Assembly: GCA_020725025.1 (NCBI GenBank)
Contig: DYFV01000003.1
Location: 1 to 64,000, forward strand
Source of the DNA: Azoarcus sp.
Lineage (GTDB): Bacteria > Pseudomonadota > Gammaproteobacteria > Burkholderiales > Rhodocyclaceae
Length of the DNA stretch: 64,000 bases
Reading direction: 5' to 3'
Both the position numbers and the translations under genes were made by a program. Below are positions 161 to 61,207 of the stretch, piece after piece (position 1 is the first letter of the stretch; each line of letters starts with the position of its first letter). The notes beneath the pieces are model-generated. The model was not told the origin of the DNA. It worked only from the letters and a program-made list of their open reading frames with translations, and searched no databases.

Positions 161-2170
<2,010 letters not shown>

Positions 2171-6303: not shown

Positions 6304-6319
6304 CGCAGGCGACGTGCCA
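6304..6319 (-). promoter_or_regulatory. Sigma-54-like promoter of the aldehyde dehydrogenase
   Basis: On the minus strand the site reads TGGCAC-GTCGC-CTGCG. The -24 element is perfect, and the -12 element keeps the essential GC with correct spacing but differs at its first and last base. It would start transcription about 45 nt before the ATG. Confidence 0.68.
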
Positions 6320-13485: not shown

Positions 13486-14776
13486 CGTTCTCCTCCTTGT
13501 CATTCGCCGGCAGCCACAGCGTGAGCTCGAGGCCCCCTCCCTTCGCGTCGCCGATCTCGAGATGCCCGCAGGCCATCGCGACGCGCTCGCGCATACCCAT
13601 GAGCCCACCGCCCGGACGGATGTGCGCCGCGCGCCCGCAACCGTCGTCACTCACCGTCAGGTACACGCCATCAGTGCTTGGCGCGAGCGTCACCCACGCC
13701 CGCCGCGCACCGCTGTGACGCAGCACGTTGGTGAGCGCCTCCTGCAGCGTCCGGTAGAGCGCCAGCCCGGCCGTCGGCGCGAGCCGCGGCAGCGCTTCCG
13801 GCAGGCGGGCCTCCAGAGCGATTCCGGTCTCGCGCTGGCGCCAGCCGGCGACCAGCTCGGAGAGGGCATCCACGATCCCGAGGCCCTCCAGTCCGTGCGG
13901 ACGCAGGGCCCGCAGGAGCCCCCGCACGTGCGACGACATCTGCGCCGCCTCGCTTCGAATGTCGCGGGCGCAGGCGACCAGGCTGGCAGGCTCGGCGGTG
14001 CCGGCATGCCTCTCCACGAAGGCGGCCGCGACACCGACCGCGGTCAGCGACTGGCCGAGTTCGTCGTGCAACTCGCGTGCCAGATCGCGCCGTTCAGCTT
14101 CCTGCACATCGATGAGACGACGCGCCAGCAGGCGCTCGGCGGCGCGCGATTCGGCGAGCCCCTGGGCGAGGCGATCGATGGCGCGCGCGATGCGCCGGAA
14201 CTCCCTGAGCTCGAACGGCGGCAGGCCGGCACCGGTTTCGCCCCGTGTGAGCCGCTCCAGCCCTGCCTCGAGCTCGCGCACCGGGCCGAGCGCTCTGTGC
14301 ACCGCGTACCAGGCGGCAGCGACGCTGACCACGGCGAACGCCATCAGCACCACCAGCATGCCCATCGCGTCACGCAGGATCTCGACGGTCTCACTGCGCG
14401 GATTGCCACTCACCAGGAGCGTGTCGTCGCCGACGGGGATGCGCAGCGCCTGGGGAGCCGCGCCGGGAAGCCGGTCGGCGAACCAGTCGAGCAGTCCGCC
14501 CTCTGGTACGTCGCGGAGCGCCTGCTCCGTTCCGGAACGCTCCAGCGACACACTCACGTGGCGCAACTCGCCGCCCGCGGCCAGTCGTTCGAGCGAGGCC
14601 GGAGAGCCCTCGCGCGCCTCATGCACCGCCAGCATCAGCTCGGCCAGATGCGTGGAGGCCTCCACTTCCTCCGCGACGTCCTCGCGCAGTGCGAATCCCA
14701 CCAGAACGACCGCGGTCGCAAGCAGCGCCAGGAAAAAAGCCGAGAGCCAGGCCACCAGGCGCCAGCGCAGATCCAT
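13457..14776 (-). CDS. Sensor histidine kinase (HisKA_3 type)
   Basis: 439 aa. Two transmembrane helices (about 8-30 and 136-158) enclose a periplasmic region of about 105 aa with no named domain. A HAMP-like segment follows, then a HisKA_3 dimerisation domain with phospho-acceptor His237 in ELHDELGQSL. The ATPase core shows LYRTLQEALTNVLRHS and SDDGCGR. The start ATG follows AGAGGAG. It partners the overlapping NarL-type regulator. Kinases of this plan sense the state of alcohol oxidation in PQQ loci; the real signal is unknown, though the neighbouring Cache protein may supply it. Confidence 0.9.
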   Translation of the reverse strand: MDLRWRLVAWLSAFFLALLATAVVLVGFALREDVAEEVEASTHLAELMLAVHEAREGSPASLERLAAGGELRHVSVSLERSGTEQALRDVPEGGLLDWFADRLPGAAPQALRIPVGDDTLLVSGNPRSETVEILRDAMGMLVVLMAFAVVSVAAAWYAVHRALGPVRELEAGLERLTRGETGAGLPPFELREFRRIARAIDRLAQGLAESRAAERLLARRLIDVQEAERRDLARELHDELGQSLTAVGVAAAFVERHAGTAEPASLVACARDIRSEAAQMSSHVRGLLRALRPHGLEGLGIVDALSELVAGWRQRETGIALEARLPEALPRLAPTAGLALYRTLQEALTNVLRHSGARRAWVTLAPSTDGVYLTVSDDGCGRAAHIRPGGGLMGMRERVAMACGHLEIGDAKGGGLELTLWLPANDKEENDDHTDPVAR

Positions 14777-14952: not shown

Positions 14953-16752
14953 TCAGCTCTTGTGCAGCTTGAACACCCACACGGAGCCGCCCTGCTCCAG
15001 GAAGTTCACCCGCTTGGCGACGTCGCCGCCCCACAGCGGCACCGCGCCGCCCCAGCCGGAGACCACGGCCACGAACTGCTCGCCGTTCTCTTCCCAGGTG
15101 ATCGGGGGCGCGATGATGCCGGAGCCGGTCTGGAACTGCCACAGCTCCTTGCCGCTCTTGGCGTCCACCGCCTTGAGGTAGCCTTCCGGCGTGCCGTAGA
15201 AGACCAGATCGCCACCGGTGGTGAGCACACCACCCCACAGCGGCGCGTTGTTCTTCACCTCCCACACGATCTTGCCGCTGACCGGATCGACCGCGCGCAT
15301 CGCGCCGATGTAGTCGTCATGCAACGGCTTGATGGTGAAGCCCGCGCCCAGGTAGGCCGCTCCGCGCTTGTAGGAGACCGGCTCGTTCCAGATGTCCATG
15401 CCCCACTCGTTCGACGGCACGTAGAAGTAGCCGGTCTTCGGGCTGAAGGCCATCGGCATCTGGTTCTTGCCGCCCAGGAAGGACGGGGCGTTGAACACCA
15501 CCTTGCCCTTCTTGCCGTCGCCGCCGCCCTCGGTGAAGGGGCTGCCCGGACGGTTCTCGTCCTTGTAGACCGGACGGCCGGTGGCCAGGTCGATCTTCTC
15601 GGCCCAGTCGATCTGCTTCACGAAGGGGAAGGCGTTCAGCAGCTTGCCGTTGGTGCGGTCATTGACGAAGAAGAAGCCGTTGCGGTCGGCCTTGCCGCCC
15701 GCCTTCACCATCTTGCCGGTCTTCGGGTCCTTGTACTCGAAGGAGACGAACTCGTTCACCCCGTCGAAGTCCCAGCCGTCGTGCGGCGTGGTCTGGTAGT
15801 GCCACTCGATCTTGCCGGTGTCCGGGTTGATCGCGACGGTGGAGGACGAGAACAGGTTGTCGCCCGGGCGCAGGTGGCTGTTCCACGGCGCGGGGTTGCC
15901 GGTGCCGATGAAGATCAGATTGACGTCCGGATCGTAGTAGGCCGACAGCCACGGCGCCGCGCCGCCGGTCTTCCACAGATCGCCCGGCCAGGTGGCGTTG
16001 GTCGTGCCGGAGATGCCGTTCTCGATCTTTTCGCCTTCGGGGCCGTACTTGTAGCCCATGTGGCCCTCGACCACGGGACGCGTCCACACCAGCTTGCCGG
16101 TCTTGGCGTCGCGCGCGTCGACGCGGCCGACGATACCGAACTCGCCGCCGGAGTTGCCCGTGATGACGAGGCCCTTGACGATCTGGGGCGCCGCGGTGAA
16201 GGAGTAGCCGGCCTTGTAGTCCTCGATCTTCTCCTTCCAGACGACCTTGCCGGTGTCCTTGTTCAGCGCCACGAGCTGGGCGTCCAGCGTGCCGAAGATC
16301 ACCAGGTCGCCGTAGAGCGCCGCGCCACGGTTGATCACGTCACAGCAGGGCATGATGCCGTCGGGCAGGCGGTGCTCGTACTTCCACAGCTTCTCGCCCG
16401 TCTTGGCATCGAGCGCGTAGATGCGGCTGTAGGACGCGGTGACGAACATCTTGCCATCGTGCACCAGCGGCTGCGACTGCTGGCCGCGCTGCTTCTCGCC
16501 GCCGAACGAGAACGACCACACCGGCACCAGATCCTTGACGGTCTTGGTGTTGACCTTCGCGAGCGGGCTGTAGCGCTGGCCCTTCGTGCCGAGACCGTGG
16601 GTGACCACCTGATGGGTGGTCGTGGCATCGTTCGCGATGTCGGCGTCGGTGACCTCCTTCGCCTGGATCTGAACGCTGCCCAGCGTCATCAGGGCGGCCG
16701 CCACGACGGTCAGCATGCCCGGACGGCGCACGGATTTATGGAGTCGCTCCAT
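14953..16752 (-). CDS. PQQ alcohol dehydrogenase, lanthanide type (PedH/ExaF-like)
   Basis: 599 aa periplasmic quinoprotein with signal peptide (about 1-31) and the eight-bladed propeller signature of methanol/ethanol dehydrogenases. Adjacent Cys136-Cys137 form the family's vicinal disulfide ([10 protein letters not shown]). Predicted metal ligands are Glu204 (SGGEFG), Asn286 (GTGNPAPW) and catalytic Asp328. The additional Asp330, two residues on ([11 protein letters not shown]), marks lanthanide-dependent enzymes, where calcium enzymes have Ala or Ser. Sequence style ([18 protein letters not shown]) is closest to PedH/ExaF ethanol dehydrogenases. AAGGAGG precedes the ATG. A sigma-54-like promoter (16839) and a palindromic operator (16864) lie upstream. 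It feeds electrons to a cytochrome c, probably PedF. Confidence 0.93.
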
Positions 16753-16838: not shown

Positions 16839-16854
16839 TGCAAGGGGCATGCCA
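16839..16854 (-). promoter_or_regulatory. Sigma-54-like promoter of the PedH/ExaF-like dehydrogenase
   Basis: The minus strand reads TGGCAT-GCCCC-TTGCA: one mismatch to TGGCAC-N5-TTGCA, with GG and GC at the required spacing. Transcription would begin about 75 nt before the ATG. Confidence 0.75.
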
Positions 16855-25926: not shown

Positions 25927-26457
25927 CTAGCTCCAATCATCCATGTCGTGCCGGATCGTGTGCCGGTTGGCGATCAGCTCGTCCACCGTCGGCTCGTTGG
26001 CCAGGGCCCGCTTGATGGCGAGCTTGGTGGCCTCGTAGTTGGTGCGGTACATGTCCCGCTTGTCCAGCTCGGCGTGGGTCGCGCAGCGCGGGTCGATCCA
26101 CACCAGGCTGATGATGCACAGCCGGTTCGCTTCCTCGCGGGGGATGATGCCCTCGATCAGGCAGTCGACCACGGCGTCGGCGGTGGCCGACTGCACCACG
26201 CCGCCGAAGAGCTCGATGTTGGCCGTGTCGCGCAGGGTGACCTTGGGCACCATGATGGTTGCGGGACGGACCAGCTGGTTGCAGGCGCGGATCGCGAACA
26301 TGGCGGTGTGGCCCTTGGTCTGCGCCATCATGTTGGCGAAGGCCTGCCCGACCGGGCCGTCGGTGCGGCCGATCAGGATCTCGGGCATGGCGTCGGTGTA
26401 CTGGCCGTCGGCGGCCAGCACGGTGGCTTCGCCGGCGTGGAAGAGGTAGTCGCTCAT
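25927..26457 (-). CDS. Fae paralogue lacking the catalytic His
   Basis: 176 aa, formaldehyde-activating-enzyme family, but divergent from the true Fae at 50711. The equivalent of the catalytic His (His17 in Methylobacterium Fae; HIDLIIG in the local canonical copy) is Met24 here (DAMPEILIG). The core GPVGQAFANMMAQTKGHTAM and the C-terminal IDPRCATHAELD, YRTNYEATKLAIKRAL are family features. It follows fhcC by 46 nt and is probably cotranscribed with fhc. Fae2/Fae3-type proteins are known in methylotrophs without settled function. It may bind formaldehyde or H4MPT without performing the condensation. Confidence 0.85.
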   Translation of the reverse strand: MSDYLFHAGEATVLAADGQYTDAMPEILIGRTDGPVGQAFANMMAQTKGHTAMFAIRACNQLVRPATIMVPKVTLRDTANIELFGGVVQSATADAVVDCLIEGIIPREEANRLCIISLVWIDPRCATHAELDKRDMYRTNYEATKLAIKRALANEPTVDELIANRHTIRHDMDDWS

Positions 26458-26503
26458 TGAAAGCTCCGGGTTGAGAAAACGTGTTCGGGAAGCGTCGCCG
26501 GGC

Positions 26504-27322
26504 TCAGCCCGGCAGCAGCCACTCCCCCTTGCCGTCGGCGGCAAGGTCGCCCACCAGCCGATGGGGGCGCCAGCCGGGCAGCTCGGCGAACACCCCGCCG
26601 TGGACGGCGAGGCTGCGCGAGAGCAGCGCCCAGATGACGCGGATGTCGTGGGCGGTGGCGGCGAAGGTGGCCGGCGGCTCGGGGGCCTCGCCGGCGAAGA
26701 CGAGGCTGCCGCGGCGCATGCCGTAGCCGCAGTGGGCGCCCACCGGCCCGCCCACTGCGACGGTGCCGGCCACCATGCGCGAGGCGAGGAAGTCCCCGAC
26801 GGCGCCGAACACCAGGGCGGTACCGCGGCGCATCCGGTCGCCGAAACGGGCGCCGGCATCGCCGCGCACGATGAAGAGCCCGCCGCGCATGCCGTCCATG
26901 TCGCCCGGCAGCGCGCTCGCGGCGAAGTCGCCCACGTCGCCGCCGACTTCCAGTCGCCCGCCGGCCATCTCGCAGGCTGCGAGCAGGCCGGCGCTGCCGG
27001 AGACGCGGATCTCGCCCGAGACGAGTCGGGAGCCGAGATAGTCGCCCGCGTCACCGTCGATTTCGATGAGCCCCCCGTCCATGCCGCGGCCGATGCCGTC
27101 GCAACGGGACAGATCGCCCTCGAAGTGCAGCGCGGGCGCGTCGCCCTCGACGGGGACGATGTCGAAGAATTCGCCCAGGGGCAGGCATTCGTTGCCGTGC
27201 CAGACCGGGCGACGCGCGATCTCTCTGGCGTCCTGCCCCGCCGCGGCGACGGGCGTGAGGCCGGTGAGGTCGAGACGCAGCGCGGGCCCGTTTTTCAGGC
27301 GCAGCCGGAAGGCGGTACTCAT
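26504..27322 (-). CDS. fhcC: Formyltransferase/hydrolase complex subunit C
   Basis: 272 aa homologue of formylmethanofuran dehydrogenase subunit C. Residues about 70-230 are a right-handed beta-helix of repeated G-x-x-G-x turns (GGRLEVGGDVGDFAAS, GGLFIVRGDAGARFG, GGPVGAHCGYGMRRG). Fhc moves the formyl group from H4MPT to methylofuran and hydrolyses it to formate in the cytoplasm. ATG overlaps the fhcD stop by 4 nt, so the order fhcB-A-D-C is tightly coupled. Confidence 0.93.
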   Translation of the reverse strand: MSTAFRLRLKNGPALRLDLTGLTPVAAAGQDAREIARRPVWHGNECLPLGEFFDIVPVEGDAPALHFEGDLSRCDGIGRGMDGGLIEIDGDAGDYLGSRLVSGEIRVSGSAGLLAACEMAGGRLEVGGDVGDFAASALPGDMDGMRGGLFIVRGDAGARFGDRMRRGTALVFGAVGDFLASRMVAGTVAVGGPVGAHCGYGMRRGSLVFAGEAPEPPATFAATAHDIRVIWALLSRSLAVHGGVFAELPGWRPHRLVGDLAADGKGEWLLPG

Positions 27323-31219: not shown

Positions 31220-31314
31220 GCGCGGTCTTCTGCAAACCATATGCCACCCTTGCGCAATCCGCACGCCGCGCGGGCTGCACCGCGGCCGGGCACGCCGCCC
31301 GCCGTGCGGCCTCA

Positions 31315-31359: not shown

Positions 31360-31470
31360 CCGCAGCGGCGCGCCGCGTCCCGCTCGCGCGCCGCATTCGA
31401 CCTTGGCATGGATCCTGATTAGAGGCTTGCCGGTACGTCTTCCCGCGACCGATCGCCACGGAGAAAACGC

Positions 31471-36073: not shown

Positions 36074-36991
36074 TCAGCGCGATGCCGGAGCCGCCGTCGC
36101 CACCGCGGCCGACGTCGCGGCTTGCGCCCGCGGCACCGGATCGGGGAGCAGCGGCACGCCGTGCTCGCGCAGGATGGCGTCGATCGCGTCGCGGTTACGG
36201 GCGATCAGTCCGTCGATCTGCGCCTTCCACGCCTTCTCGCCGAAACGCACCCCCATCGCCATCGCGTAGTCGAACTTCACGCCGGGCTCCGAGGCGAGGG
36301 GCACCACGCGCAGCGGCTTGTCCTTGGACTGGCGCGCGATGTAGCCGCCGATCGGCCCCCACACCACCGCCGCGTCGATCTTGCCCGCGGCCAGATCGCG
36401 GCCGATGACCTGAGCCGGTTGCTCGTCGGGGTCGGGGCTCATGCTCTTGTACGGCACCCCTGAATCCACGATGTCATGATGGGCCAGCCAGGCCGAAGCC
36501 GGGGAGCGATCGAAGACGCCGATGCGCAGCCCCCCCAGGGTCTCGCGCGGCAGGGCGAGGAAATCCTCGGGACGTTCGACGCCGGCCAGCGCCTCGGTGG
36601 GTGCAAAGACCAGCACGTAGGTCGAACGGTAATAGGGCGCGGTGGGCAGGACCTGGCCGTAATCGGCCGGTACGCCCATCACGATGTCGCAGGGGTAGTC
36701 CTCGCCGGGTACCTTGAAGCGCAGCGTGTTGCGGATGAAGCCGAGACGCTGCGGAAATTCGTAGGTCTCCACGGGCAGGCCGAGCTGAGCGGCGAAGAGC
36801 GCCGCGATCTTGTCCTCGAAGCCGTCTCCGCGGGCGTTGGTGAATGGCATGTTGCCGGGGTCCTTGCAGACGCGGAACGCCTTGCGCGGCGTATCGTCGT
36901 CCGCGGCGCCGGCAAGCGCGGTACCGCCGGCCAGCGCGAGCGCTGCGAGCAGCCGTGCGCCGTACCGGAGGGTGCTGGCGAGGGGCGCCAT
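36074..36991 (-). CDS. xoxJ: XoxJ-like periplasmic binding protein
   Basis: 305 aa, quinoprotein-associated substrate-binding-like family. Leader to about 28, then FRVCKDPGNMPFTNARGDGFEDKIAALFAAQLGLPV (outline), the characteristic opening of XoxJ/MoxJ. The Cys in RVCKDPGNMP is conserved in the family. XoxJ proteins are thought to assist activation of XoxF rather than transport, and no transporter genes are near. Order xoxF-xoxG-xoxJ on one strand supports the call. Confidence 0.9.
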   Translation of the reverse strand: MAPLASTLRYGARLLAALALAGGTALAGAADDDTPRKAFRVCKDPGNMPFTNARGDGFEDKIAALFAAQLGLPVETYEFPQRLGFIRNTLRFKVPGEDYPCDIVMGVPADYGQVLPTAPYYRSTYVLVFAPTEALAGVERPEDFLALPRETLGGLRIGVFDRSPASAWLAHHDIVDSGVPYKSMSPDPDEQPAQVIGRDLAAGKIDAAVVWGPIGGYIARQSKDKPLRVVPLASEPGVKFDYAMAMGVRFGEKAWKAQIDGLIARNRDAIDAILREHGVPLLPDPVPRAQAATSAAVATAAPASR

Positions 36992-36993
36992 GG

Positions 36994-37401
36994 TTATTTC
37001 TCCAGTTGAACCTTCGCCCGGGTGATCGCTCCGTCCGAGCGCCCTTTCAGATAGGCGTAGAGCTGGTCGATGTGCTCACGGACCTTGTTGTTCTGTCCGA
37101 AGCTGGGCATGCCCTTGTCGAGGCGTCCGTTCAGCACGGTGGCCTTGAACTCCTCCGGCGTGAGGACCTTCAGCGATTCGATCAGCGACGGACCCACCAT
37201 GCCTTCCTGGTTGGGGCCGTGACAGCGGTCGCAGGCCGCGGCGCGCCAGGTGCGAAAGCCCTCCATGGTGAACGCGTCGACCTTGTAGCCGTCCTTCACC
37301 GTGTAGGGCGCCTTGCCGGCACCGTTGTCGCTCAGGGCGGTCGCCGGGATCGCCACGCTCGCCATCAGGGCTGCCAGGGACCAGTAGAAAACGCCTTTCA
37401 T
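36994..37401 (-). CDS. xoxG: XoxG cytochrome c
   Basis: 135 aa with signal peptide ending ATAL. Single haem motif CDRCHG (about 57-62) and axial Met in DKGMPSFGQN. It is the expected electron acceptor of XoxF and lies directly downstream of it. CGGAGGAGACACTCG precedes the ATG. A 20-bp hairpin in the xoxF-xoxG gap may set its lower expression. Confidence 0.9.
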   Translation of the reverse strand: MKGVFYWSLAALMASVAIPATALSDNGAGKAPYTVKDGYKVDAFTMEGFRTWRAAACDRCHGPNQEGMVGPSLIESLKVLTPEEFKATVLNGRLDKGMPSFGQNNKVREHIDQLYAYLKGRSDGAITRAKVQLEK

Positions 37402-37443
37402 CGAGTGTCTCCTCCGTGTTCGGATGGTTTTTGGTTGTGATGT

Positions 37444-37493: not shown

Positions 37494-39296
37494 TTAGTTG
37501 GGCAGCGCGAAGACCGTCAGCGAACCGCCGAGGGCGGTGAACCTCTGGAGGTCGCGGTAGCCACCCACGGCACCCAGGCCGTCGTTGTCCTTCTCGAGGC
37601 CCGCCGCCATGCCGATGCCGGCCCAGCCGCCGATACCCGAGTAGACGCCCACGTACTGCTTGCCGCCGTGCATGTAGGTGAACACGTTGCCGATGATGCC
37701 GGACGGAGTCTTGAACTTCCACAGCTCCTTGCCGTCCTTGAGGCTCACCGCCTTCAGGTAGCCCTCCAGGGTACCGTAGAAGATCACGTCACCCGCCGTG
37801 GTGAGCGCCCCGCTCCACACCGAGAAGCGCTCCGGCTTGGACCATACGATCTTGCCCTTGCCGGCATCCCAGGCGATGAAGTTGCCCATGCCGCCGTGGC
37901 TGTTGGGCGCGGGATACATCGCCAGGGTGGCGCCGACGTACGGCTGCCCCGCGGTGTATTCCACCTCGAACGGCTCGTAGTCCATGCACACGTGGTTGGT
38001 CGGGACGTAGAACAGGCCGGTCTTGGGATGGAAGGTCGCCGGCTGCTGGTCCTTGGTGCCGAGCGCCGCGGGGCAGATCCCCTTGGTGTTCACGTCGGGA
38101 CCGTTCTGCGCCGTGCTGTACTTCGCCACCACCTGAGGCCGGCCGGTCTTCATGTCCACGTGGGTCGCCCAGTTCACCACCGGATCGTACTTCTCGGCGA
38201 CCAGCAGGGCGCCGTTGGTGCGGTCCAGGGTGTAGGCGAAGCCGTTGCGGTCGAAGTGCACCAGCGCCTTGGTCTTCTTGCCCTTGACGTCGATGTCGGC
38301 GAGGATCATCTCGTTGATCCCGTCGAAGTCCCACTCGTCGTGCGGCGTCATCTGGTACGCCCACTTCGCCACGCCGGTGTCGAGATCGCGGGCGAAGATG
38401 GTCATGGACCACTTGTTGTCGCCCGGCCGCTGCGCGGGGTTCCAGGTAGAAGGGTTGCCCGTCCCGTAGTAGACCAGGTTCAGGTCCTTGTCGTAGCTGT
38501 ACCAGCCCCAGGTGGTGCCGCCGCCGATCTTCCACTGGTCGCCCTTCCAGGTCTTCAGGGACGAGTCCTTGCCCACCGGCGCGAGCTTGCCGTCGGTCCA
38601 GGTCATCGTCTTGTCCGGATCCATCAGCATTTCGTCGTCGGGCCCGGTGCTGTAGGCGCGCCATACCTGCTTGCCGGTCTTGATGTCGTAGGCGGTCAGA
38701 TAGCCGCGCACGCCCCACTCGCCGCCGGAGATGCCGGTGATGATCTTGTCCTTGAAGACGTGCGGCGCGTTGGTGTTGACCGCGCCCAGCTTGGGATCGC
38801 CGTTGACCACCGACCATACGACCTTGCCGGTCTTGGCGTCGAGGGCGTCGAGCACGCTGTCCGCCCGCTGCAGGAAGATCTTCCCGTCGCCGTAGGCCAG
38901 GCCGCGGTTCACCGTGTCGCAGCACATCTGCGCCACCACCGCCGAGTCCTGCTTGGGCTCGTACTTCCACACGATCTCCTGGGTCTTCAGATCCAGCGCG
39001 AAGACGTTGTTGGGGAAGGGGGTGTGGATGTACATCATGTCGCCGATCACCAGCGGCGAGCCCTCGTGGCCGCGCAGCACGCCGGTCGAGAACGTCCAGG
39101 CGACCTGCATCTTGCCTACGTTGCCGGCATTGATCTGCTTGAGCGGGCTGTAGCGCTGGTTGTAGTAGTCACCCGCCTGGGTCGTCCAGTTGGCCGGATC
39201 CTTCATGGCCTTGTCCAGCGCCGGGTCGGCCAGGGCGGGCCAGGCGCAGGCGCAGGCCAGCGCCGGCAGGACGTGAAGCTTGAAGCTAAATTTCAT
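37494..39296 (-). CDS. xoxF: Lanthanide-dependent methanol dehydrogenase XoxF
   Basis: 600 aa, periplasmic, signal peptide to about 23. XoxF-type sequence [20 protein letters not shown] and [18 protein letters not shown] with the vicinal disulfide Cys125-Cys126. Predicted metal ligands: Glu193 (SGGEWG), Asn281 (GTGNPSTW), Asp323 and the extra Asp325 ([11 protein letters not shown]), the lanthanide signature. Oxidises methanol to formaldehyde (some XoxF enzymes to formate) with PQQ. AGAGGAG precedes the ATG. A sigma-54-like promoter at 39466 would give a 5' leader of about 158 nt. No mxaF is seen in the window. Confidence 0.96.
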
Positions 39297-39465
39297 CGAA
39301 ATGTCTCCTCTTGTTATACCGAGTGCTTCGGATTCCGATCACCGGCCTGAGCCGCGATCCTGACTACCCCGAATCGCTGCAGAGACGAGATCGTGCCGGC
39401 CATCCCTCGACCAGCGGACGGACGCAAGAACGGATACGTCGCCGTGCCCGTCTTGGGGGAGCAAA

Positions 39466-39481
39466 CGCAAGTGACGTGCCA
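39466..39481 (-). promoter_or_regulatory. Sigma-54-like promoter of xoxF
   Basis: Minus strand reads TGGCAC-GTCAC-TTGCG, matching TGGCAC-N5-TTGCW except the last base. It lies 170 nt upstream of the xoxF ATG. Confidence 0.78.
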
Positions 39482-39668
39482 TCACGCCGAGAAGCGCACC
39501 AGCACAGGGCATGAACCGGGTATCCGGGCCCGGAGAGTGCGCCGCAGATCAGGCTTCCGGGCGAGCGCCGGCTCCTCGCAGCGCCCATCGGCCTGCCCGG
39601 CCGGGCTGCCGCCGACCGTCGAAGGCGGGGACGAAGGGTCGTCACGATTACACAGTGCCCCGTGACAC

Positions 39669-39689
39669 ACTGCTCCTGTTCGCGAACAG
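39669..39689. promoter_or_regulatory. ACTGCTCC octamer with CTGTTCGCGAACAG palindrome
   Basis: ACTGCTCC (39669-39676) runs into a perfect 14-bp palindrome (39676-39689). The octamer also forms the arms of the inverted repeat at 16936. Position upstream of the xoxF sigma-54-like promoter suits an enhancer. Confidence 0.55.
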
Positions 39690-39808
39690 TCTCCGCCCGG
39701 CGCAGCGCCGGCAGCGGCCCAGCCTTCGCGCCGGCGCGGGGCGGGCCCTTGGCATGGTTCGTGTTTCATCCCTTCGGTAAGGCCCGGGTGCCCCCGGAAA
39801 GCAGGGGG

Positions 39809-40513
39809 TCAGAGGGCGGCGTGCGGGGCGATCCGGCGATCGTGAAGCGCGGAGGCCACCAGCCAGGCGTCGGCACCTGCCGCCGCCGCGGCCCGAAGGT
39901 CGGCCTGGTCGCGGATGCCGCCCGCACCGACGATGACGGCATCGGGCGCACGGCGACGCACCGCGGCCAGGGTGGAGAGGTCGGGACCGGTAAAGGCCCC
40001 GACACACTCGAGCGTCATTACGATGATACGCTCCGGCCACCATGCCTCGTGGTCCCAGCAGCCCGCCGGATCGAGGGGCAGGCCGGCGCGCCGGTCGAGG
40101 GACAGGACGGCTCGCGCGGGGTCCGCAAGGCAGCCGCGGGCGGTCTGCGCGTCGGGCAGCGATTCGCTGCCGAAGACCGGCGTGAGCCGCGCCGCGGCGG
40201 GGCCGAACTGCCGGGCCAGGTCTTCGAGGCCCGCGGCGTTGCGGAAGCCGCCGTCGAGCCAGATCGCGGTGCTCGGCAGCGCCTGCAGCAGCCGCGCCAG
40301 ATGGCCGGCTTGCACCGGGCCGCCGAGCAGCGCGTCGAGGTCGGCGACGTAAAGGGTATCGGCGCCGCTGTAATCGAGCAGCGCGCGGGCGACGGCAACG
40401 GGATCGCTGCCGGCGCACAGGGCGGAGCGCACCGGCCGGTAGGCGGCGCGTTCTCCGCGGACGGCACGCACCACCTGGCCGGCCATGAGATCGATGACGG
40501 GAATGACGCGCAT
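39809..40513 (-). CDS. HisA-like TIM-barrel protein of the C1-cofactor cluster
   Basis: 234 aa, HisA/HisF-fold (starts MRVIPVIDLMAGQVVRAVRG, with YVADLDALLGG and a C-terminal phosphate-binding VIVGAGGIRDQADLRAA). It is diverged from histidine-pathway HisA, and no his genes are near. HisA-like proteins of unknown role recur in bacterial H4MPT/methylofuran clusters. Its ATG and the ATG of the divergent ATP-grasp gene share the tetramer CATG, so the two leave no spacer. A phosphate-sugar or furan precursor is a plausible substrate (inference). Confidence 0.85.
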   Translation of the reverse strand: MRVIPVIDLMAGQVVRAVRGERAAYRPVRSALCAGSDPVAVARALLDYSGADTLYVADLDALLGGPVQAGHLARLLQALPSTAIWLDGGFRNAAGLEDLARQFGPAAARLTPVFGSESLPDAQTARGCLADPARAVLSLDRRAGLPLDPAGCWDHEAWWPERIIVMTLECVGAFTGPDLSTLAAVRRRAPDAVIVGAGGIRDQADLRAAAAAGADAWLVASALHDRRIAPHAAL

Positions 40514-47209: not shown

Positions 47210-47772
47210 TTCAGAGACAGCTCCGCGAGACGCGCATTCAGGGCCTGCTCCAGGGTTGCGGGGGTTTCGACGACCCGGCAGTGGTCGATGCGCCGCAGGC
47301 GCTCCACGTTCTCGAGGTCGATGTTGCGCGGCCGCAGCTCGACCCACTCGCGCGGACTCCGCGTGATCACCACCGGTTCGCTGTCGCACGCAAAGACGAT
47401 GCCAGGAATCCCCAGCTTGCCCGCCTGGGCGAACATGTTGGTGGGCAGCGTGTCGGAGAGCCCGATCACGCACTTGGCCACGGTGTTGCTGGTGGCGGGC
47501 GCCACCACCACGGTGTGGTAGACGTCGTCGTAGAGCATCCCCACCGGCACCGAGCTGGCGCTCTTGTCCCGAAAGACGCGGAAGCGCTCGCGCAGGCGCT
47601 CCATGGGATAACCGTAGAGGGGCAGCACCTCCTCGGCGGCGGCGGAGAGAAAGAAATCCACCTCGGGCAGGCGGAAGGCGAGCTCCAGCGCCTCGGTCAG
47701 GAAGTGGCCCGAGCCGGTGATCGCCCAGGCGAAGCGGCGGCGCCGGCCCGGGTCGCTCGCCCGGGGCCGCAC
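47188..47772 (-). CDS. Archaeal-type flavoprotein, dihydromethanopterin reductase-like
   Basis: 194 aa from GTG 47772. HFCD/flavoprotein fold: FAWAITGSGHFLTEALELAF at the N-terminus, FLSAAAEEVLPLYGY, VVVAPATSNTVAKCVIGLSDTLPTN and ELRPRNIDLENVERL. DmrB/AfpA-type proteins reduce dihydromethanopterin to H4MPT. A longer frame (ATG 47886) would overlap the preceding activator gene by 95 nt; the shorter start, just after TGAGGA, is preferred but not certain. Confidence 0.82.
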   Translation of the reverse strand: MRPRASDPGRRRRFAWAITGSGHFLTEALELAFRLPEVDFFLSAAAEEVLPLYGYPMERLRERFRVFRDKSASSVPVGMLYDDVYHTVVVAPATSNTVAKCVIGLSDTLPTNMFAQAGKLGIPGIVFACDSEPVVITRSPREWVELRPRNIDLENVERLRRIDHCRVVETPATLEQALNARLAELSLKWSTLSS

Positions 47773-47791: not shown

Positions 47792-49783
47792 TCAGTGGGA
47801 CGCGGAGTCGGTGGAAAGGGGGATGCGCAGCCGATGCAATCTTCGGTAGAGGGTGTTGCGACTGATGTCGAGGGCTTTGGCGACATTGCTCACGTTCCAG
47901 CGTTGTTCTTGAAGCAGGCCGAGCAGTACCGCACGCTCGCTGGCCTGGATCGGATCGAGCTTCACGTCGTCGTCGCCCGCTACCGCAGCCCCCGTCGGAG
48001 TTGGGCCTGCAACCGCCAGCGGCGCAGGCGCCGCAAGCCGCTCGCGGCCTGCCTGGCGCAAGGCCGGCGGCAGCGCCGCCATGCTCAGGCGCCCGCCCTC
48101 GGCGAGCACCGCCGCGGTACGCAGCACGTGCCGCAGCTGGCGCAGGTTCCCCGGCCAGGGGTAGCTCATGAGCAGCGTCTCCGCATCGGGGTCGATGCTC
48201 ATGCGCGCGCCGGCCTCTTCCTGCAGCACCCGGCAGATGAGGTCCCGCTTGTCGCTGCGCTCGCGCAGCGGCGGCAGGGTCACCTCCAGGCCGGCAAGCC
48301 GGTAGTAGAGGTCCTCGCGGAAGGCGCCCTCGGCCACGAGCCTGGGCAGGTCGCGATGCGTGGCGCTCACCAGCTGGAAGTCCACCGGGATGACCTCTTC
48401 CGAGCCGAGCGGCGAGACGCGACGTTCATCGAGCACCCGCAAGAGCCGTGCCTGCAGCGTCAGCGGCATGTCGCCGATTTCGTCCAGGAAGAGCGTGCCG
48501 CGATCGGCCTGCAGGATCTTGCCCCGCCGGCCGTTGCGCTGGGCGCCGGTGAAGGCGCCGGCGCGATAGCCGAACAGTTCGCTCTCGATGAGCGTCTCCG
48601 GCAGCGAGGCGCAGTTCACCGCCACGAACTGGCCGGAGGCATAGGGGCTGCCCTCGTGCAGCGCCCGCGCGAAGACCTCCTTGCCCGCCCCGGTCTCGCC
48701 GTGCAGCAGCACCGGGATGCGCTTGGCGACCACGCGCGCGGCCACGCTCATCTGCGACACGATGCGCTCGTCGCCGAACTGCTCGGCGGCCTTCCCCGGC
48801 GCCGACTCTTCCACCGGCGCCGGCACGCCGACGCGCTCGGACGAGATCAGCGACTGGGCGGCCGGCTGCTGGGCCACCACGAAGAAGCGGTTGGAGCGCC
48901 CGGCGCAGAAGGTCGGGACCGGATGGAAGGAGCTGCGCGTGCTGCGCTGGAGGATGTCTGGCAGGGTCGTCTGGAAGACCTGCTCGATCTGCTTGCCGCG
49001 GATCTCGTCCACCGAGGGATAGCCCAGCTGGAACAGCGCGCTGCGGTTCGCGGCGCGGATGCTGCCGTCGTGGGACACGACCAGCTTGCCTTCGTGCAGC
49101 GTGTAGACGAACTCCGGCCGGCTGTGGAAGTGAACCGGGCAGGCGTCCTGGAAGCGAAGATCCAGGAGCCGGTTCTCGATCATCTGGGCCGTCATCCCGA
49201 GCAGCACCAGGGAGTGCTGCTGCATGAGCTGGGAGCGGCTGGTGACGTCGAGCACGGCGACAACCTCGCCGTCCGGGTCGAAGATCGGCACCGCCGAACA
49301 GGTGAGCGAGGTGTAGGCGCCGTAGAAGTGGTCGTGCTGGCGCACCACCACCGGCTCGCGCGCCACCAGACAGGTCCCCATGCCGTTGGTACCCACCGCC
49401 GGCTCGCTCCAGACGGCGCCCGGGCAGAAGCCGACCTGGGCCATCATGGAGGAGAACTCCGGGGCCGCCACCATGTGCAGGATCACACCCTCGGTGTCGA
49501 CCAGCACGACGGCGGACTCGCGATCGCCCAGCTGCTGGAACAGCGTGGTCATCTCGAGCTTGGCGCAGTCGATGATGTCGCGCGAGCGGTCGCGGTGCTT
49601 CTCGAGCAGCCGCTCGCCCAGGATGTCCGGGCGGGCCGGCCTTTCCGGATCGAGACCGTAGTCGGTCAGGCAGCGGGTCCAGGAACGGGTCACGAGGTCG
49701 GTGGTGAGGGCACGGGCACGCCCATCCACGACGTCGTGCACCCGGCGTGCGTGGTCGCGCACTTCCGGCATCGAAGAGTTCAC
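47792..49783 (-). CDS. Sigma-54-dependent activator, AcoR-like (GAF-AAA-Fis)
   Basis: 663 aa, GTG start behind AAGGAGGAGACC (an ATG four codons later lacks spacing). GAF region about 75-200 with WSEPAVGTNGMGTCL; PAS-like part to about 310. AAA+ with Walker A GETGAGKE, GAFTGA and Walker [11 protein letters not shown] all intact, and a Fis-type HTH (VAKALDISRNTLYRRLHRL). It heads the leftward operon of flavoprotein, DHPS-like, DUF447, MfnB-like and perhaps the chemoreceptor. It may couple cofactor supply to alcohol use. Confidence 0.93.
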   Translation of the reverse strand: MNSSMPEVRDHARRVHDVVDGRARALTTDLVTRSWTRCLTDYGLDPERPARPDILGERLLEKHRDRSRDIIDCAKLEMTTLFQQLGDRESAVVLVDTEGVILHMVAAPEFSSMMAQVGFCPGAVWSEPAVGTNGMGTCLVAREPVVVRQHDHFYGAYTSLTCSAVPIFDPDGEVVAVLDVTSRSQLMQQHSLVLLGMTAQMIENRLLDLRFQDACPVHFHSRPEFVYTLHEGKLVVSHDGSIRAANRSALFQLGYPSVDEIRGKQIEQVFQTTLPDILQRSTRSSFHPVPTFCAGRSNRFFVVAQQPAAQSLISSERVGVPAPVEESAPGKAAEQFGDERIVSQMSVAARVVAKRIPVLLHGETGAGKEVFARALHEGSPYASGQFVAVNCASLPETLIESELFGYRAGAFTGAQRNGRRGKILQADRGTLFLDEIGDMPLTLQARLLRVLDERRVSPLGSEEVIPVDFQLVSATHRDLPRLVAEGAFREDLYYRLAGLEVTLPPLRERSDKRDLICRVLQEEAGARMSIDPDAETLLMSYPWPGNLRQLRHVLRTAAVLAEGGRLSMAALPPALRQAGRERLAAPAPLAVAGPTPTGAAVAGDDDVKLDPIQASERAVLLGLLQEQRWNVSNVAKALDISRNTLYRRLHRLRIPLSTDSASH

Positions 49784-50710: not shown

Positions 50711-51220
50711 TCAGTGCGCAGCGAACGGGTGTTCCGCGGTGCGCTTCTTCTCGACCACCTCGGCCGCCGTCGGCTGGCCGGCAACCGCGCGCTGGATGGC
50801 CTCGCGGGTGGCGCGGTAGTTGTAGTCCTGGATCTTCTTGTCGTCCTCGGCGAGCCAGTGGATGAACACGCCCACGCAGATGAAGAGGTTGTCGGCCTCG
50901 TCCAGCGGGATGGTGCCGTCCTCGACGCTGTCGGCGACCGCCATGGCCACGGCCCGCTGGGCCGGGCCGAACATCTGCACGGCCTGCTTGGCGCCCTTGA
51001 TGGTCACCTTGTTGAACATCACGGTGTTGGGCTTGGCCAGGAGGTTGGGGGCGACGACGGCGAGCAGCGAGGTGAAGCCGTCCTTGTTGTTCGTCAGGGC
51101 GTTGGCGAACGCCGTCTCGGCGGCGCTGCCACGCGGTCCGATGATCAGGTCGATGTGGGCGACCTCGTTGCCGTCTCCTACCAGCGACTCACCCACCAGC
51201 ATGCGATCGATTTTTGCCAT
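50711..51220 (-). CDS. fae: Formaldehyde-activating enzyme
   Basis: 169 aa, canonical Fae. Condenses formaldehyde with H4MPT to methylene-H4MPT. The catalytic His22 is present in [35 protein letters not shown] and [26 protein letters not shown] (outline) follow. AAAAGGAGCACAACA gives a strong ribosome binding site. Last gene of the leftward operon beginning with the MptG-like gene. Its start overlaps the end of the CitG-like gene by 32 nt. Fae is usually made in large amounts, which fits the strong site and the terminator after it. Confidence 0.96.
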
Positions 51221-57805: not shown

Positions 57806-58174
57806 ATGCCGACCCGGATACTCGTCGTCGACGACTCGGCCATGGCGAGAAAGATGTTGATCAAGGCGCTGCCGGCGAGCTGGGATGTCGAGATCGAGCA
57901 GGCGAGCAACGGCGAGGAGGCGCTCGCCGCATACCGCGCGGCCGAGTTCGACGTGATGTTCCTCGACCTCACCATGCCCGGCATGGATGGTTTCCAGGTC
58001 CTGGAGGCGCTGCGCCGGGAGGAGCTCAACTGCCTTGTCGTCGTGGTTTCGGCCGACATCCAGCCGGCGGCCCGCGCACGCGTCCGGGAGCTCGGCGCGA
58101 TCGCCTTCGTGCCGAAGCCGATCGATGCGGCACGGATCGGCGCCGTGCTGCGCGAATACGGAGTCTGCCCATGA
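57806..58174 (+). CDS. CheY-like single-domain response regulator
   Basis: 122 aa receiver only: Asp9-Asp10, phospho-acceptor Asp54 (MFLDLTMPGMDG), and Lys in FVPKPID. AAGGAGATTCTGC precedes the ATG. Its stop overlaps the CheC-like gene by 4 nt. With the CheC-like phosphatase and PAS kinase it forms a small phosphorelay. The target may be the chemotaxis motor or the activator nearby. Confidence 0.92.
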   Translation: MPTRILVVDDSAMARKMLIKALPASWDVEIEQASNGEEALAAYRAAEFDVMFLDLTMPGMDGFQVLEALRREELNCLVVVVSADIQPAARARVRELGAIAFVPKPIDAARIGAVLREYGVCP

Positions 58175-58782
58175 CCGAGGGACTGCTGTCCGAAGACCAG
58201 CGCGACGCGCTGCAGGAGATCGCCAACGTGGGCATGGGCCAGGCGGCCGCCTCGATCGCCACCGTGCTGGGCGAGTTCGTGCAGCTCTCGGTGCCGCGCA
58301 TCCTCATCCTGCGCCCCGCGCTCATCGGCCCGGCCCTGGAGCGCATGGTCGGGAAGGAGTCGGTCACCGCGGTCCGTCAGGGCTTCCACGGCGAGTTGCG
58401 CGGCGAAACGCTGGTCATCTACGGCCGCGAGCAGTGCCGCGAGCTCGCCGGCCTGATGGGGTACGGCGAGACGCTCGATGCTGCGAGCGAGCACGAGCTG
58501 CTGCTCGACGTGAGCAACCTGATGGTCGGTGCCTGCCTGGGCGGGATCGCCGCGCAGATCAAGTTCGAGCTCGGTTTCTCCGCCCCCTCGCTGATGGCCG
58601 AGGACGCAGCCCCGGCCTCGCTGCTCGACAGCCGGGGGATCGGCACGCCCTGCGCGCTGTTCCTCGAGGTGAATTTCCGCCTCGAGCGGCGCGATTTCGC
58701 CTGCCACCTCGTGATGCTCATGCCGGAAGAGGAAATCCTTGTGATCCGCGCCGCCCTCGATCGCTTCCTGGAGAGCCTGTGA
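58171..58782 (+). CDS. CheC-like phosphatase
   Basis: 203 aa, CheC/FliY/CheX family. The first active-site motif is intact (LQEIANVGMGQAAASIA, Glu and Asn); in the second (LLLDVSNLMVGACLGG) the Glu position reads as Asp or Val. CheC removes phosphate from CheY-P. Starts by ATGA overlap after CheY and overlaps the kinase start. Confidence 0.88.
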   Translation: MTEGLLSEDQRDALQEIANVGMGQAAASIATVLGEFVQLSVPRILILRPALIGPALERMVGKESVTAVRQGFHGELRGETLVIYGREQCRELAGLMGYGETLDAASEHELLLDVSNLMVGACLGGIAAQIKFELGFSAPSLMAEDAAPASLLDSRGIGTPCALFLEVNFRLERRDFACHLVMLMPEEEILVIRAALDRFLESL

Positions 58783-60095
58783 TGAGCACAGCCATCGATC
58801 TGCCGCGGCTGGCCGACTTCGTGGTCGACCGCGTCGCGGTCGGCGTCTTCGCGGTCGACCGCGAGCTCACCGTCACGCTGTGGAACCGCTTCATGGCCAC
58901 CCACAGCCGGCGCCCGGCCGAGACCGTGCTCGGGCGCAAGCTCTTCGACTGCTTTCCCGAGCTGCCGCGGGAGTGGTTAGAGCACAAGATCCATACCGTG
59001 CTGACCCTGGGCAACTACGGCTTCACCTCCTGGGAGCAGCGTCCCTTCCTTTTCCGCTTCGACCACAACCGCCCCATCACCGGGGGCGTGGACGCGATGC
59101 GCCAGAGCTGCACCTTCCTGCCGGTACGGAGCCCGGACGGCACGGTCGAGCAGGTCTGCGTGACCGTCTTCGACTACACCGACGCCGCCCTCGCCCACGC
59201 CGAGCTGGCGCGCACGGTGCAGGCCCTGGAAGCCGAGCAGGCCGCCCAGCGCAAGCTCATCGACGAGCTCGAGCAGGCCCACAACCAGCTCCTGCAATCG
59301 GAAAAGCTCGCCTCCATCGGCCAGCTCGCCGCGGGGGTCGCCCACGAGATCAACAACCCGATCGGCTTCGTCAACTCCAACCTCGGCACCCTCGACGGCT
59401 ACGTGAGCGACCTGTTGCGCGTGATCGACGCCTATCGCGAGGTGGAGGCGGCCCTGCCGCCCGAGTCCCGCGCGAGGGTCGAGGCGGTCAAGCAGGAGGT
59501 GGACCTCGCCTACCTGCAGGACGACGCGGGCGCGCTGGTGAAAGAGAGCCGCGACGGGCTCGATCGGGTCACGCGCATCGTGCAGGACCTCAAGGATTTC
59601 TCGCGCATGGGCACCGCCGACTGGCAGTGGGCCGACCTGCACCGCTGCCTCGACAGCACCATCAACGTGGTGACCAACGAGATCAAGTACAAGGCGGAGC
59701 TCGAGCGCCGCTATGCCGAGCTCCCCGAGGTCCGCTGCGTGCCTTCGCAGCTGAACCAGGTCTTCATGAACCTGCTGGTCAACGCGGCCCAGGCCATCCC
59801 GGAACGCGGACGGATCACCATCACCACCGGGCGGAACGGCGACGAGGTCTTCGTGGCGGTGCGCGACACGGGTGCCGGCATCCCGCCCGACATCCTCAAG
59901 CGCGTCTTCGATCCCTTCTTCACCACCAAGCCGGTCGGCACCGGCACCGGTCTGGGCCTGTCGGTCTCCCACGGCATCGTCGAGCGCCATCGCGGCCGCA
60001 TCGAGGTCGACAGCGAGCCGGGCGCCGGCACCGAGTTCCGGGTGTGGCTGCCCATCGACGCGCAGCCGGCAATGGGAGCACAGGACGCGGTGTAA
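58782..60095 (+). CDS. PAS sensor histidine kinase
   Basis: 437 aa, soluble. PAS domain about 10-135 (VGVFAVDRELTVTLWNRF), coiled linker about 140-175, then HisKA with His188 in GVAHEINNPIGFVNSNL and HATPase with NQVFMNLLVNAAQAI, DTGAGIP and GTGLGLS. Likely phosphorylates the CheY-like protein encoded two genes before. The PAS has no visible cofactor Cys or His set. Starts ATG overlapping the CheC-like stop. Confidence 0.92.
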   Translation: MSTAIDLPRLADFVVDRVAVGVFAVDRELTVTLWNRFMATHSRRPAETVLGRKLFDCFPELPREWLEHKIHTVLTLGNYGFTSWEQRPFLFRFDHNRPITGGVDAMRQSCTFLPVRSPDGTVEQVCVTVFDYTDAALAHAELARTVQALEAEQAAQRKLIDELEQAHNQLLQSEKLASIGQLAAGVAHEINNPIGFVNSNLGTLDGYVSDLLRVIDAYREVEAALPPESRARVEAVKQEVDLAYLQDDAGALVKESRDGLDRVTRIVQDLKDFSRMGTADWQWADLHRCLDSTINVVTNEIKYKAELERRYAELPEVRCVPSQLNQVFMNLLVNAAQAIPERGRITITTGRNGDEVFVAVRDTGAGIPPDILKRVFDPFFTTKPVGTGTGLGLSVSHGIVERHRGRIEVDSEPGAGTEFRVWLPIDAQPAMGAQDAV

Positions 60096-60101
60096 CGGCC
60101 G

Positions 60102-60126
60102 GATCGCGGCTGCAGCCGCTCCTACA
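60102..60126 (-). repeat. REP-like palindrome containing GTAGGAGCGGCTGCAGCC
   Basis: On the minus strand, GTAGGAGCGGCTGCAGCCGC with a 14-bp perfect core (60106-60119). The family is common between genes of Pseudomonas and relatives. It lies between convergent genes; its TAG is also the stop codon of the activator at 60122. Confidence 0.65.
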
Positions 60127-61207
60127 AGCGGCCCAGCTTGCGATACAGGGTGTTGCGGCTGATCCCCAGGCGGCGTGCCGCGGCGGAAACGTTGCCCCCT
60201 TCGTCGGCGAGCACTTCCTCGATGGTGCGCCGCTCGAGGCTGCGCAGCGACTCGTCGGAACCCGCATGCGGCGTCCCGACGGTTTCCCGCGCGGCCGGTG
60301 GCGGGCGCGGCTGCTCGTCCCCGTCGCTCTCCAGGGCGAACAGTTCCTCGGGCAGGTGCTCGGAGGCGATGATCGACTCGCTGTCGTCGAGCAGTGCGAG
60401 CGCCACGCGCAGGCTGTTGTGCAGCTGGCGCAGGTTGCCGGGCCAGGGGTAGCGCCGGAAGAAGGCGAGCACGTCCGGGGCGACATCCACGGCACGCTGC
60501 CCCTCGGTCTCCATGTCGAGCAGGATGCGCACCAGGCGATCGATGTCGCTGCGCTCGCGCAGCGGCGGCAGCGTGACCGCGAGCCCGTTGATGCGGTAGT
60601 AGAGATCCTGCCGGAAGGTGCCGGAGCGCACCGCCTCGGCCAGGTTGCAGTGGGTTGCGCAGACCAGCGCGAACGACACGGGCAGGGTCCTGCTGCTGCC
60701 GAGCGGCGTCACGCAACGCTCCTGGAGCACCCGCAGCAGACGGCTCTGGAGCCCCAGGGGCATGTCGCCGATCTCGTCGAGGAAGAGCGTGCCGCCGTTG
60801 GCCTGCCTGAGCTTGCCCGCGAAGCCCTCGCGCCGTGCGCCGGTGAAGGCGCCGCCCACGTAGCCGAAGAGCTCGGATTCGATGAGATGCTCGGGAATGG
60901 CCGCGCAGTTGACCGCCACGAAGACGCCTTCGCGCTGCGGTCCGCCGTTGTGGAAAGCCTTGGCGAAGAGCTCTTTCCCGACCCCCGACTCGCCGAGGAC
61001 GAGGAGCGGGATATCCCGCCCCTCGACCCGCCCCGCGCGCCGTATCGCCTCCGCCATGCGCGGGTCGCCGGTGTCGAGCCGCGCCAGCGTCAGACGGCGC
61101 TCCACCGGCGCGCGGGCATCGGCCTGCGGGAACGGGCCGTGGCGCGCGGTGTCCGGTGCGACCTTGGGCGTTTCTTCATCGGGGACGGATCGGAGCGGCA
61201 ATCGCAT
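60122..61207 (-). CDS. Sigma-54 activator lacking an N-terminal sensor
   Basis: 361 aa. Only about 45 residues precede the AAA+ domain, so there is no GAF/PAS sensor. AAA+ has [24 protein letters not shown] and FRQDLYYRI; a Fis-type helix-turn-helix closes it (SAAARRLGISRNTLYRKLG). It is the mirror of the protein at 6600, which keeps the sensor but lost activator parts. It should activate constitutively or be controlled by a partner, such as the adjacent two-component set (inference). No strong ribosome binding site precedes the ATG, so a longer start cannot be excluded. Confidence 0.88.
   Translation of the reverse strand: MRLPLRSVPDEETPKVAPDTARHGPFPQADARAPVERRLTLARLDTGDPRMAEAIRRAGRVEGRDIPLLVLGESGVGKELFAKAFHNGGPQREGVFVAVNCAAIPEHLIESELFGYVGGAFTGARREGFAGKLRQANGGTLFLDEIGDMPLGLQSRLLRVLQERCVTPLGSSRTLPVSFALVCATHCNLAEAVRSGTFRQDLYYRINGLAVTLPPLRERSDIDRLVRILLDMETEGQRAVDVAPDVLAFFRRYPWPGNLRQLHNSLRVALALLDDSESIIASEHLPEELFALESDGDEQPRPPPAARETVGTPHAGSDESLRSLERRTIEEVLADEGGNVSAAARRLGISRNTLYRKLGRL

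Follow-up and report, generated by a model that had tools for sequence, protein, structure and literature searches.

Predicted sigma-54 control of xoxF in an Azoarcus one-carbon gene island, with a candidate GAF-type activator

The timing of lanthanide methanol dehydrogenase synthesis is an open question beyond a few model methylotrophs, and the locus considered here raises it for an Azoarcus sp.: which promoter, and which regulator, drive its xoxF gene? The xoxF controls described in the available part of PMC6115532 are two-component systems and MxaY. A sequence-only reading of the window, by which we mean the whole 64,000-nucleotide stretch of DNA analysed, had claimed that xoxF appears to be driven by sigma-54. 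In this study, we found strong support for this claim in a conserved -24/-12 element above xoxF, in the presence of rpoN in the genome and in a GAFTGA activator gene in the same cluster, and further support in relatives whose -24/-12 element accompanies an adjacent activator. Judged from sequence, sigma-54 control of xoxF is predicted with high confidence.

The genes at the centre of the question are the following.
37494-39296, minus strand: xoxF, lanthanide-type PQQ methanol dehydrogenase of 600 aa, with an ATG start and an AGGAGA ribosome site
36994-37404, minus strand: xoxG-like cytochrome c gene (TIGR03874, below its cut-off)
36074-36991, minus strand: xoxJ-like periplasmic binding protein gene (TIGR03871, over cut-off)
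50711-51220, minus strand: fae, formaldehyde-activating enzyme, adjoining the activator gene 47792-49783

The product of 37494-39296 scored over the cut-off of TIGR03075, and the PDB entries that it matched best, 6dam and 6oc5, are XoxF. Among PQQ dehydrogenases it is closest to XoxF and carries the extra Asp two residues after the catalytic Asp. Aligned with 6dam, 6oc5 and 4mae, it reads WDFDG where 6dam and 4mae read WDYDG, and we take WDFDG to be the lanthanide Asp-x-Asp. Downstream of xoxF lie the xoxG-like and then the xoxJ-like gene, and the surrounding island holds fae, mch, mtdB-like, fhcA and formyltransferase genes together with SoxYZ-like and metallohydrolase partners. A PedH-like PQQ dehydrogenase gene is found in the same one-carbon island, 21 kb from xoxF. 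Besides fae, a second Fae domain is present in the fhc region, at residues 208-371 of the open frame 25927-27054 (minus strand).

Sigma-54 promoters follow a consensus near TGGCACG-N4-TTGCW, with GG at -24 and GC at -12. The boxes above xoxF are as follows.
39476-39481, minus strand: -24 box TGGCAC of the predicted sigma-54 promoter, exact match, conserved
39467-39470, minus strand: -12 box TTGC of the predicted sigma-54 promoter, exact match, conserved

The near-consensus TGGCAC-N5-TTGCG said to lie 170 nt above xoxF is indeed present at 39481-39466 on the minus strand (TGGCACGTCACTTGC / TGGCACGTCACTTGCG) as an exact TGGCAC-N5-TTGC, extending from 185 nt (first base) to 170 nt (last base) ahead of the A in the xoxF ATG. 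In TGGCACGTCACTTGCG, ten bases separate the GG at -24 from the GC at -12, and the final W position is G. Transcription usually starts 11-12 nt from the -12 box, and this spacing would place the xoxF start near 39455. An RNA family search over 39200-39860 found none. Two genes of the genome encode the rpoN DNA-binding domain PF04552 over cut-off, with no internal stops. They lie on contigs C98 and C28 (L001 and L002), and 5% contamination of the assembly could explain one of them.

How much a -24/-12 match means depends on its form. With two mismatches allowed, TGGCAC-N5-TTGC gave 69 matches in the window against 67 expected, which is no signal. Exact matches number 20 in the 5.44-Mb genome, 3 of them in the window, against 3 in the genome for the reversed pattern, so that a given exact match is probably, though not certainly, real. 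TGGCAY-N5-TTGC has 8 sites in the window, 7 of them on the minus strand, and the relaxed element defined below appears in 1% of 200 dinucleotide shuffles of the window's xoxF upstream region. The other exact matches of the window lie at 2369 (plus strand), about 510 nt above a gene start, and at 14068-14082 (minus strand), inside a histidine kinase gene. That some of the other sites in the window stand above or inside other genes counts against the reading. No -24/-12 element was found within 420 nt of the assumed starts of fae, mch, mtdB and fhcA. Further sites on the minus strand of the window are a strict-form one at 31232-31246 above the fhcA region, one with a single mismatch at 6305-6319 above an ExaC-type aldehyde dehydrogenase gene, and a -24/-12-like one at 47390-47404 above a DUF6513 gene.

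Conservation separates the xoxF element from this background. XoxF was sought in 101 relatives, and among the 17 same-genus genomes xoxF was found in four: the window's own, G012, where XoxF matches as two pieces in different frames, G014 and G015. With L033, whose XoxF is 87% identical, these give five orthologous upstream regions, which are pairwise 46-89% identical, G012 and G015 being the near pair. The -24/-12 element is conserved above xoxF in all five, with 13 of its 16 bases invariant against 19% of the columns outside the box. Three conserved islands stand out in these regions, namely the -24/-12 box, a repeat (about 39648-39677) and, further up, a third box (about 39748-39764). Conservation in relatives puts the xoxF -24/-12 element far above chance.

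A wider comparison used named xoxF loci, the best 80 of at least 596 matches, together with 11 loci from relatives; one of these 91 (L070) was too short, which left 90, and the count excludes L014 (no upstream sequence), L015 (match starting inside the gene) and L016 (51% identity). The 330 nt above each match start were searched with plain patterns, relaxed (.GGCAY-N6-TGC) or strict (TGGCAY-N5-TTGC), the scoring weights of an earlier locus scan having been ad hoc and not a published matrix. The relaxed element stands above xoxF in 46 of these 90 loci (best 80 of at least 596 matches, plus relatives), against 2.0 expected from shuffles and 4 on the opposite strand, and the strict element in 9 of the same 90 against 0.13 expected. 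After removal of similar upstream regions from this best-80-of-at-least-596-plus-relatives set, 18 of 50 loci retained the relaxed form. Strict elements outside the genus include those of a Thauera MAG (L037), L039, L045 (Nevskia), L007 and L090; TGGCACGNNNNGTGCT is found in three of five Massilia loci and in Pollutimonas and Candidimonas, and a weaker CGGCATGGAATATGC in most Paraburkholderia and Caballeronia loci, where the form CGGCAT-N5-TATGC is a weak sigma-54 match. The relaxed element is missing in 44 of the 90 loci (again the best 80 of at least 596 plus relatives), among them Methyloversatilis and alphaproteobacteria, and no element was found in the fetched loci of Methyloversatilis, Methylopila, Ancylobacter, Grimontia and Enterovibrio.

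A sigma-54 promoter calls for an upstream activator site. Three features stand above the -24 box.
39676-39689, minus strand: palindrome CTGTTCGCGAACAG, 14 bp, perfect, 195 bp above the -24 box
39648-39672, minus strand: CAGTGTGTCACGGGGCACTGTGTAA, a candidate upstream activating sequence that lies 167-191 bp above the -24 box
39748-39762, minus strand: third conserved box ACGAACCATGCCAAG / ACRAWCCATGCCAAR, kept above xoxF in five orthologs

The 14-bp palindrome reported about 190 bp above the element was found, CTGTTCGCGAACAG being one of 12 perfect palindromes of 14 bp or more in the window. Its proposed part as an enhancer did not hold up: it occurs in the window's region only, aligning next to the conserved repeat, which lies just downstream, and is absent from the four orthologous regions compared. 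Its 12-bp core has no other site at up to one mismatch in the window, and it is unlikely to be a working enhancer. The better enhancer candidate is likely the TGTGTMAC repeat beside it at 39648-39672, which is kept in all five orthologs. Without mismatch, this repeat occurs once per genome, always above xoxF, in the four same-genus genomes with xoxF; at up to two mismatches the pattern has a single match in the window's genome (with 0 mismatches) and one extra match in G014, and the reversed control gave single matches in the window's genome, G012, G014, G015 and G085. Across 50 xoxF loci (from the best 80 of at least 596 plus relatives), GTGACAC/GTGTCAC ranks first among 7-mers once the ribosome site is set aside, in 15 loci against 2.1. 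However, in these loci such repeat-like words show no significant association with the -24/-12 element (p 0.15), their positions vary, and GTGACAC is also found above xoxF in alphaproteobacteria. A repeat word common to all xoxF promoters was thus rejected, and the repeat is claimed for the five close orthologs only. The third box (CCATGCCAA) has many degenerate copies in the genome (37, compared with 6 for the reversed control), and therefore no claim is made for that box. An inverted copy of it with one mismatch lies between promoter and xoxF in G012, G014 and G015, and another one-mismatch copy at 31402-31416 (minus strand) above the fhcA region in the window.

Two genes of the window encode full activators of the type that could act at such a promoter.
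47792-49783, minus strand: P0001, candidate activator, a GAF - AAA+ (GAFTGA) - HTH_8 enhancer-binding protein identified from domain matches and orthologs
161-2170, minus strand: P0002, second GAF-AAA+(GAFTGA)-HTH_8 activator, 669 aa, 42% identical to P0001

P0001 scored over the cut-offs of PF01590, PF00158 and PF02954 (GAF, sigma-54 interaction AAA+ and Fis-type HTH), and its GAFTGA loop, the part that contacts sigma-54, is intact (ELFGYRAGAFTGAQ). Its start is likely the GTG at 49783, after AAGGAGGAG, in a frame that is open from 50014. All the NCBIfam equivalogs listed for P0001 (PrdR, DhaR, NifA and others) scored below their cut-offs, so no such name is given to it. A third, short sigma-54 activator gene, in which no sensor domain was found, lies at 60122-61207 (minus strand) beside a PAS histidine kinase gene at 57987-60095 (plus strand). 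Elsewhere in the same genome, at 90292-96990 of contig C122, a PQQ dehydrogenase-like frame with one internal stop lies between two convergent activator genes of the P0001 family, the first of which also has one internal stop.

Within the genus, the distribution of P0001 follows that of xoxF. Among the 101 relatives, orthologs of 76-77% were found only in G012, G014 and G015, the same-genus genomes with xoxF, so that within the genus a P0001 ortholog is present in 4 of 4 genomes with xoxF against 0 of 13 without (Fisher, p 4e-4, uncorrected for kinship). At E 1e-160 or better (at least 45% identity), a match is present in 8 of the 13 genomes whose XoxF is at least 68% identical, against 2 of 88 others, likewise uncorrected for kinship; this limit excludes the match of G097 (46%, E 1.3e-124). 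At E 1e-120 or better, which also admits paralogs, P0001 matches were found in 26 of 30 genomes picked for spread from the best 80 of at least 596, and the four without a match (Grimontia, two Methylopila and Ancylobacter) are also without the -24/-12 element. In a tree built by a quick method, P0001 falls in a supported group of 25 rows with Burkholderiales proteins; the Massilia-Pollutimonas-Nevskia group is weakly supported, and several branches are long.

Gene neighbourhoods bear on the same point. In five Massilia loci and in Pollutimonas, Candidimonas, L039, L045 (Nevskia) and L090, xoxF and a relative of the activator are no more than about 8 kb apart, and H4MPT genes, which were sought in the fetched stretches of these loci, some of them short, were not found. 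A piece of the activator, adjoining fae and some 10 kb from xoxF, appears at the edge of 12 Paraburkholderia/Caballeronia-type loci. The Ramlibacter locus (L038) has ghmp, mtdB, mch, citG, fae and xoxFGJ in one direction, with the activator on the other strand at their head, an arrangement that may account for the lack of a separate xoxF element there. A full-length GAFTGA activator was present in the fetched stretch of 11 named loci, 8 of them with the element (L038, L064 and L072 are without); these are small numbers in the expected direction. On the other side, no clear element stands at xoxF in G021, G085, Azohydromonas (L035) and Methyloversatilis (L068), although each of these genomes has a P0001 relative. 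A similar protein, encoded 9 kb away in L035, lacks GAFTGA, and intact P0001 relatives are also present in that genome. Furthermore, the P0001 gene lies within the H4MPT cluster, and its co-occurrence with xoxF could thus reflect C1 metabolism as a whole. Taken together, the gene 47792-49783 is a reasonably likely candidate for the activator of xoxF.

Two sets of loci provide contrasts. G084 has several xoxF-like genes, whose matches (48-68%, several in pieces) were excluded from the 13 xoxF genomes. Its C3 and C15 copies (L212 and L213) each have a divergent activator about 0.4 kb away, with 44 and 40% identity to P0001, as well as a strict -24/-12 element (TGGCACACGCTTTGCC and TGGCATGCAGCTTGCT), 146 and 160 nt above the match start. 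The two C14 copies (L214 and L215), in contrast, have no strict or relaxed element in 400 nt and no activator match at E 1e-100, a search that scored 10 of 13 first-look candidates at that limit only, so that a weaker activator near C14 is possible. This contrast covers the C3, C15 and C14 copies named; further XoxF-like copies lie on C11 and C3. The second set has enhancer-binding-protein relatives within about 0.5 kb upstream of xoxF (L009 128-1066, L063 193-2079 and L067 7653-9542). In L009 and L063 the GAFTGA loop is altered to GEITGT or GEVTGT, in L067 it was not found, and no -24/-12 element stands above xoxF in any of the three, which suggests a possible shift of the same regulator line to ordinary sigma-70 control there. 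That this shift took place, and that much of the betaproteobacteria and some gammaproteobacteria control xoxF through a GAF-type sigma-54 activator that is dedicated to it and moves with it, separate from the two-component lanthanide switch, is a broader idea that could equally well prove right or wrong.

Several other explanations of the xoxF promoter have to be weighed. It is highly improbable that the -24/-12 match is a product of chance or part of another element, such as the small hairpin GTGATGGCACGTCAC over the site. Degenerate matches in the window are indeed no more frequent than chance gives, exact ones occur inside coding sequence too (14068-14082), and a terminator-like stem overlaps the site (2 found in the stretch against 0.5 expected); however, the 3' arm of the hairpin differs in the orthologs whereas the -24/-12 bases are kept, and the enrichment genome-wide and across species argues against chance, as does the G084 contrast. 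It is also quite unlikely that the element is a real but secondary promoter and that the lanthanide switch is a two-component system acting on another start site. Such an arrangement would agree with the two-component systems and MxaY described for xoxF in the available part of PMC6115532, with the two histidine kinase/LuxR-type pairs in the window and with the third conserved box further upstream. Yet the best conserved parts of the region are the -24/-12 box, the repeat and the third box, with no other promoter-like island, and a simple sigma-70 consensus scan upstream of xoxF gave no site, a silence that weighs little because 0.0 sites are expected by chance.

The choice of activator leaves more room. 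The xoxF promoter might be sigma-54-dependent but served by another protein, P0002 or a LuxR-type response regulator as for exaA, which we consider unlikely, if worth keeping in view. The window does hold this second GAFTGA activator and LuxR-type regulators, the exaA of Azospirillum brasilense provides a precedent for a LuxR-type partner (available part of PMC6115532), and in G025 a relative of P0002 (L134) lies 6 kb from an xoxF whose upstream region has a strict -24/-12 element and a TGTCAC-N5-GTGACA dyad. G025 is, however, the exception among the 8 tree rows that group with P0002, the other 7 coming from genomes without this XoxF type; 35 kb separate the P0002 gene from xoxF, and 13 kb from the PedH-like gene; and it is P0001 rather than P0002 that tracks xoxF in the genus.

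The explanation that we favour, and regard as probable on the sequence evidence, is that xoxFGJ is transcribed from the sigma-54 promoter at 39481-39466, most likely with P0001 acting at the repeat 39648-39672. Sigma-54 RNA polymerase would be held at this promoter as a closed complex, and the transcript, with a leader of about 160 nt, would carry xoxG and xoxJ together with xoxF. An enhancer-binding protein of the AcoR/BmoR type, most likely the 47792-49783 product, would bind the TGTGTMAC repeat at 39648-39672, where binding of P0001 is presumed, and sensing of a signal by its GAF domain would lead to ATP hydrolysis and opening of the promoter through a DNA loop. The signal may be a C1 compound or an alcohol, with lanthanides possibly linked to it. 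Promoters of the sigma-54 class normally stay off unless an activator with a sensor of its own acts on them. Thus xoxF would answer to a signal that a single protein reads within the cell, and not solely to metal sensed in the periplasm. The outcome is a named gene and named bases, and possibly a part for a methanol or formaldehyde sensor.

xoxF is not the only PQQ dehydrogenase gene of the island with such an element.
16840-16854, minus strand: second -24/-12 element TGGCATGCCCCTTGC, upstream of the PedH-like PQQ dehydrogenase gene (14953-16752)

A strict -24/-12 element stands above the PedH-like gene in 15 of 16 loci of relatives (L017-L032, L017 being without) as well as in the window, and sigma-54 control of PQQ alcohol dehydrogenases may therefore be usual in this group. 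The expectation that sigma-54 control would be unusual thus stands in part. A literature search, with subscription journals mostly outside its scope, found no report of a sigma-54 xoxF promoter in the available text (PMC6115532, PMC12997753, PMC12403871, PMC5874634, PMC5023235 and PMC8899819 included). On the other hand, the PedH-like element recurs as described, and exaA of Azospirillum brasilense, the gene of a related PQQ alcohol dehydrogenase, is already reported to depend on sigma-54 with a LuxR-type regulator, as cited in the part of PMC6115532 available. exaA resembles the present case in this dependence; it differs in that the target is exaA rather than xoxF and the partner is LuxR-type, where the candidate here is GAF-type. 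The xoxF/mxaF switch of MxcQE, MxbDM and MxaB (Methylobacterium) and MxaY (Methylomicrobium) acts on the same class of enzyme, but through two-component control, with no sigma-54 step described in the available part of PMC6115532. Our results point to an xoxF control that differs from the two-component switches described so far.

Sigma-54 systems of other oxidation genes offer further comparisons. BmoR at Pbmo of Thauera butanivorans is likewise an activator without a phosphorylation site at a sigma-54 promoter, and the accessible part of PMC8899819 places a putative activator site 193 bp above the -24/-12 boxes, a spacing similar to the 167-191 bp here, which speaks for our reading; the same source reports that removal of this putative site left activation like wild type, which counts against our reading. 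BmoR, likened here by features other than sequence comparison, is an alcohol-sensing activator of an alkane monooxygenase operon, whereas the target here is a lanthanide methanol dehydrogenase. Also counting against our reading, an RpoD motif predominates above the methane genes of Methylosinus sporium 5, according to the available part of PMC12403871. The mmo operon of methanotrophs, by contrast, is under sigma-54 with its activator MmoR in the operon, said in the accessible part of PMC5874634 to be close to GAF-type activators; it resembles the locus described here as a one-carbon oxidation operon under sigma-54 and differs in encoding a methane monooxygenase, not a methanol dehydrogenase.
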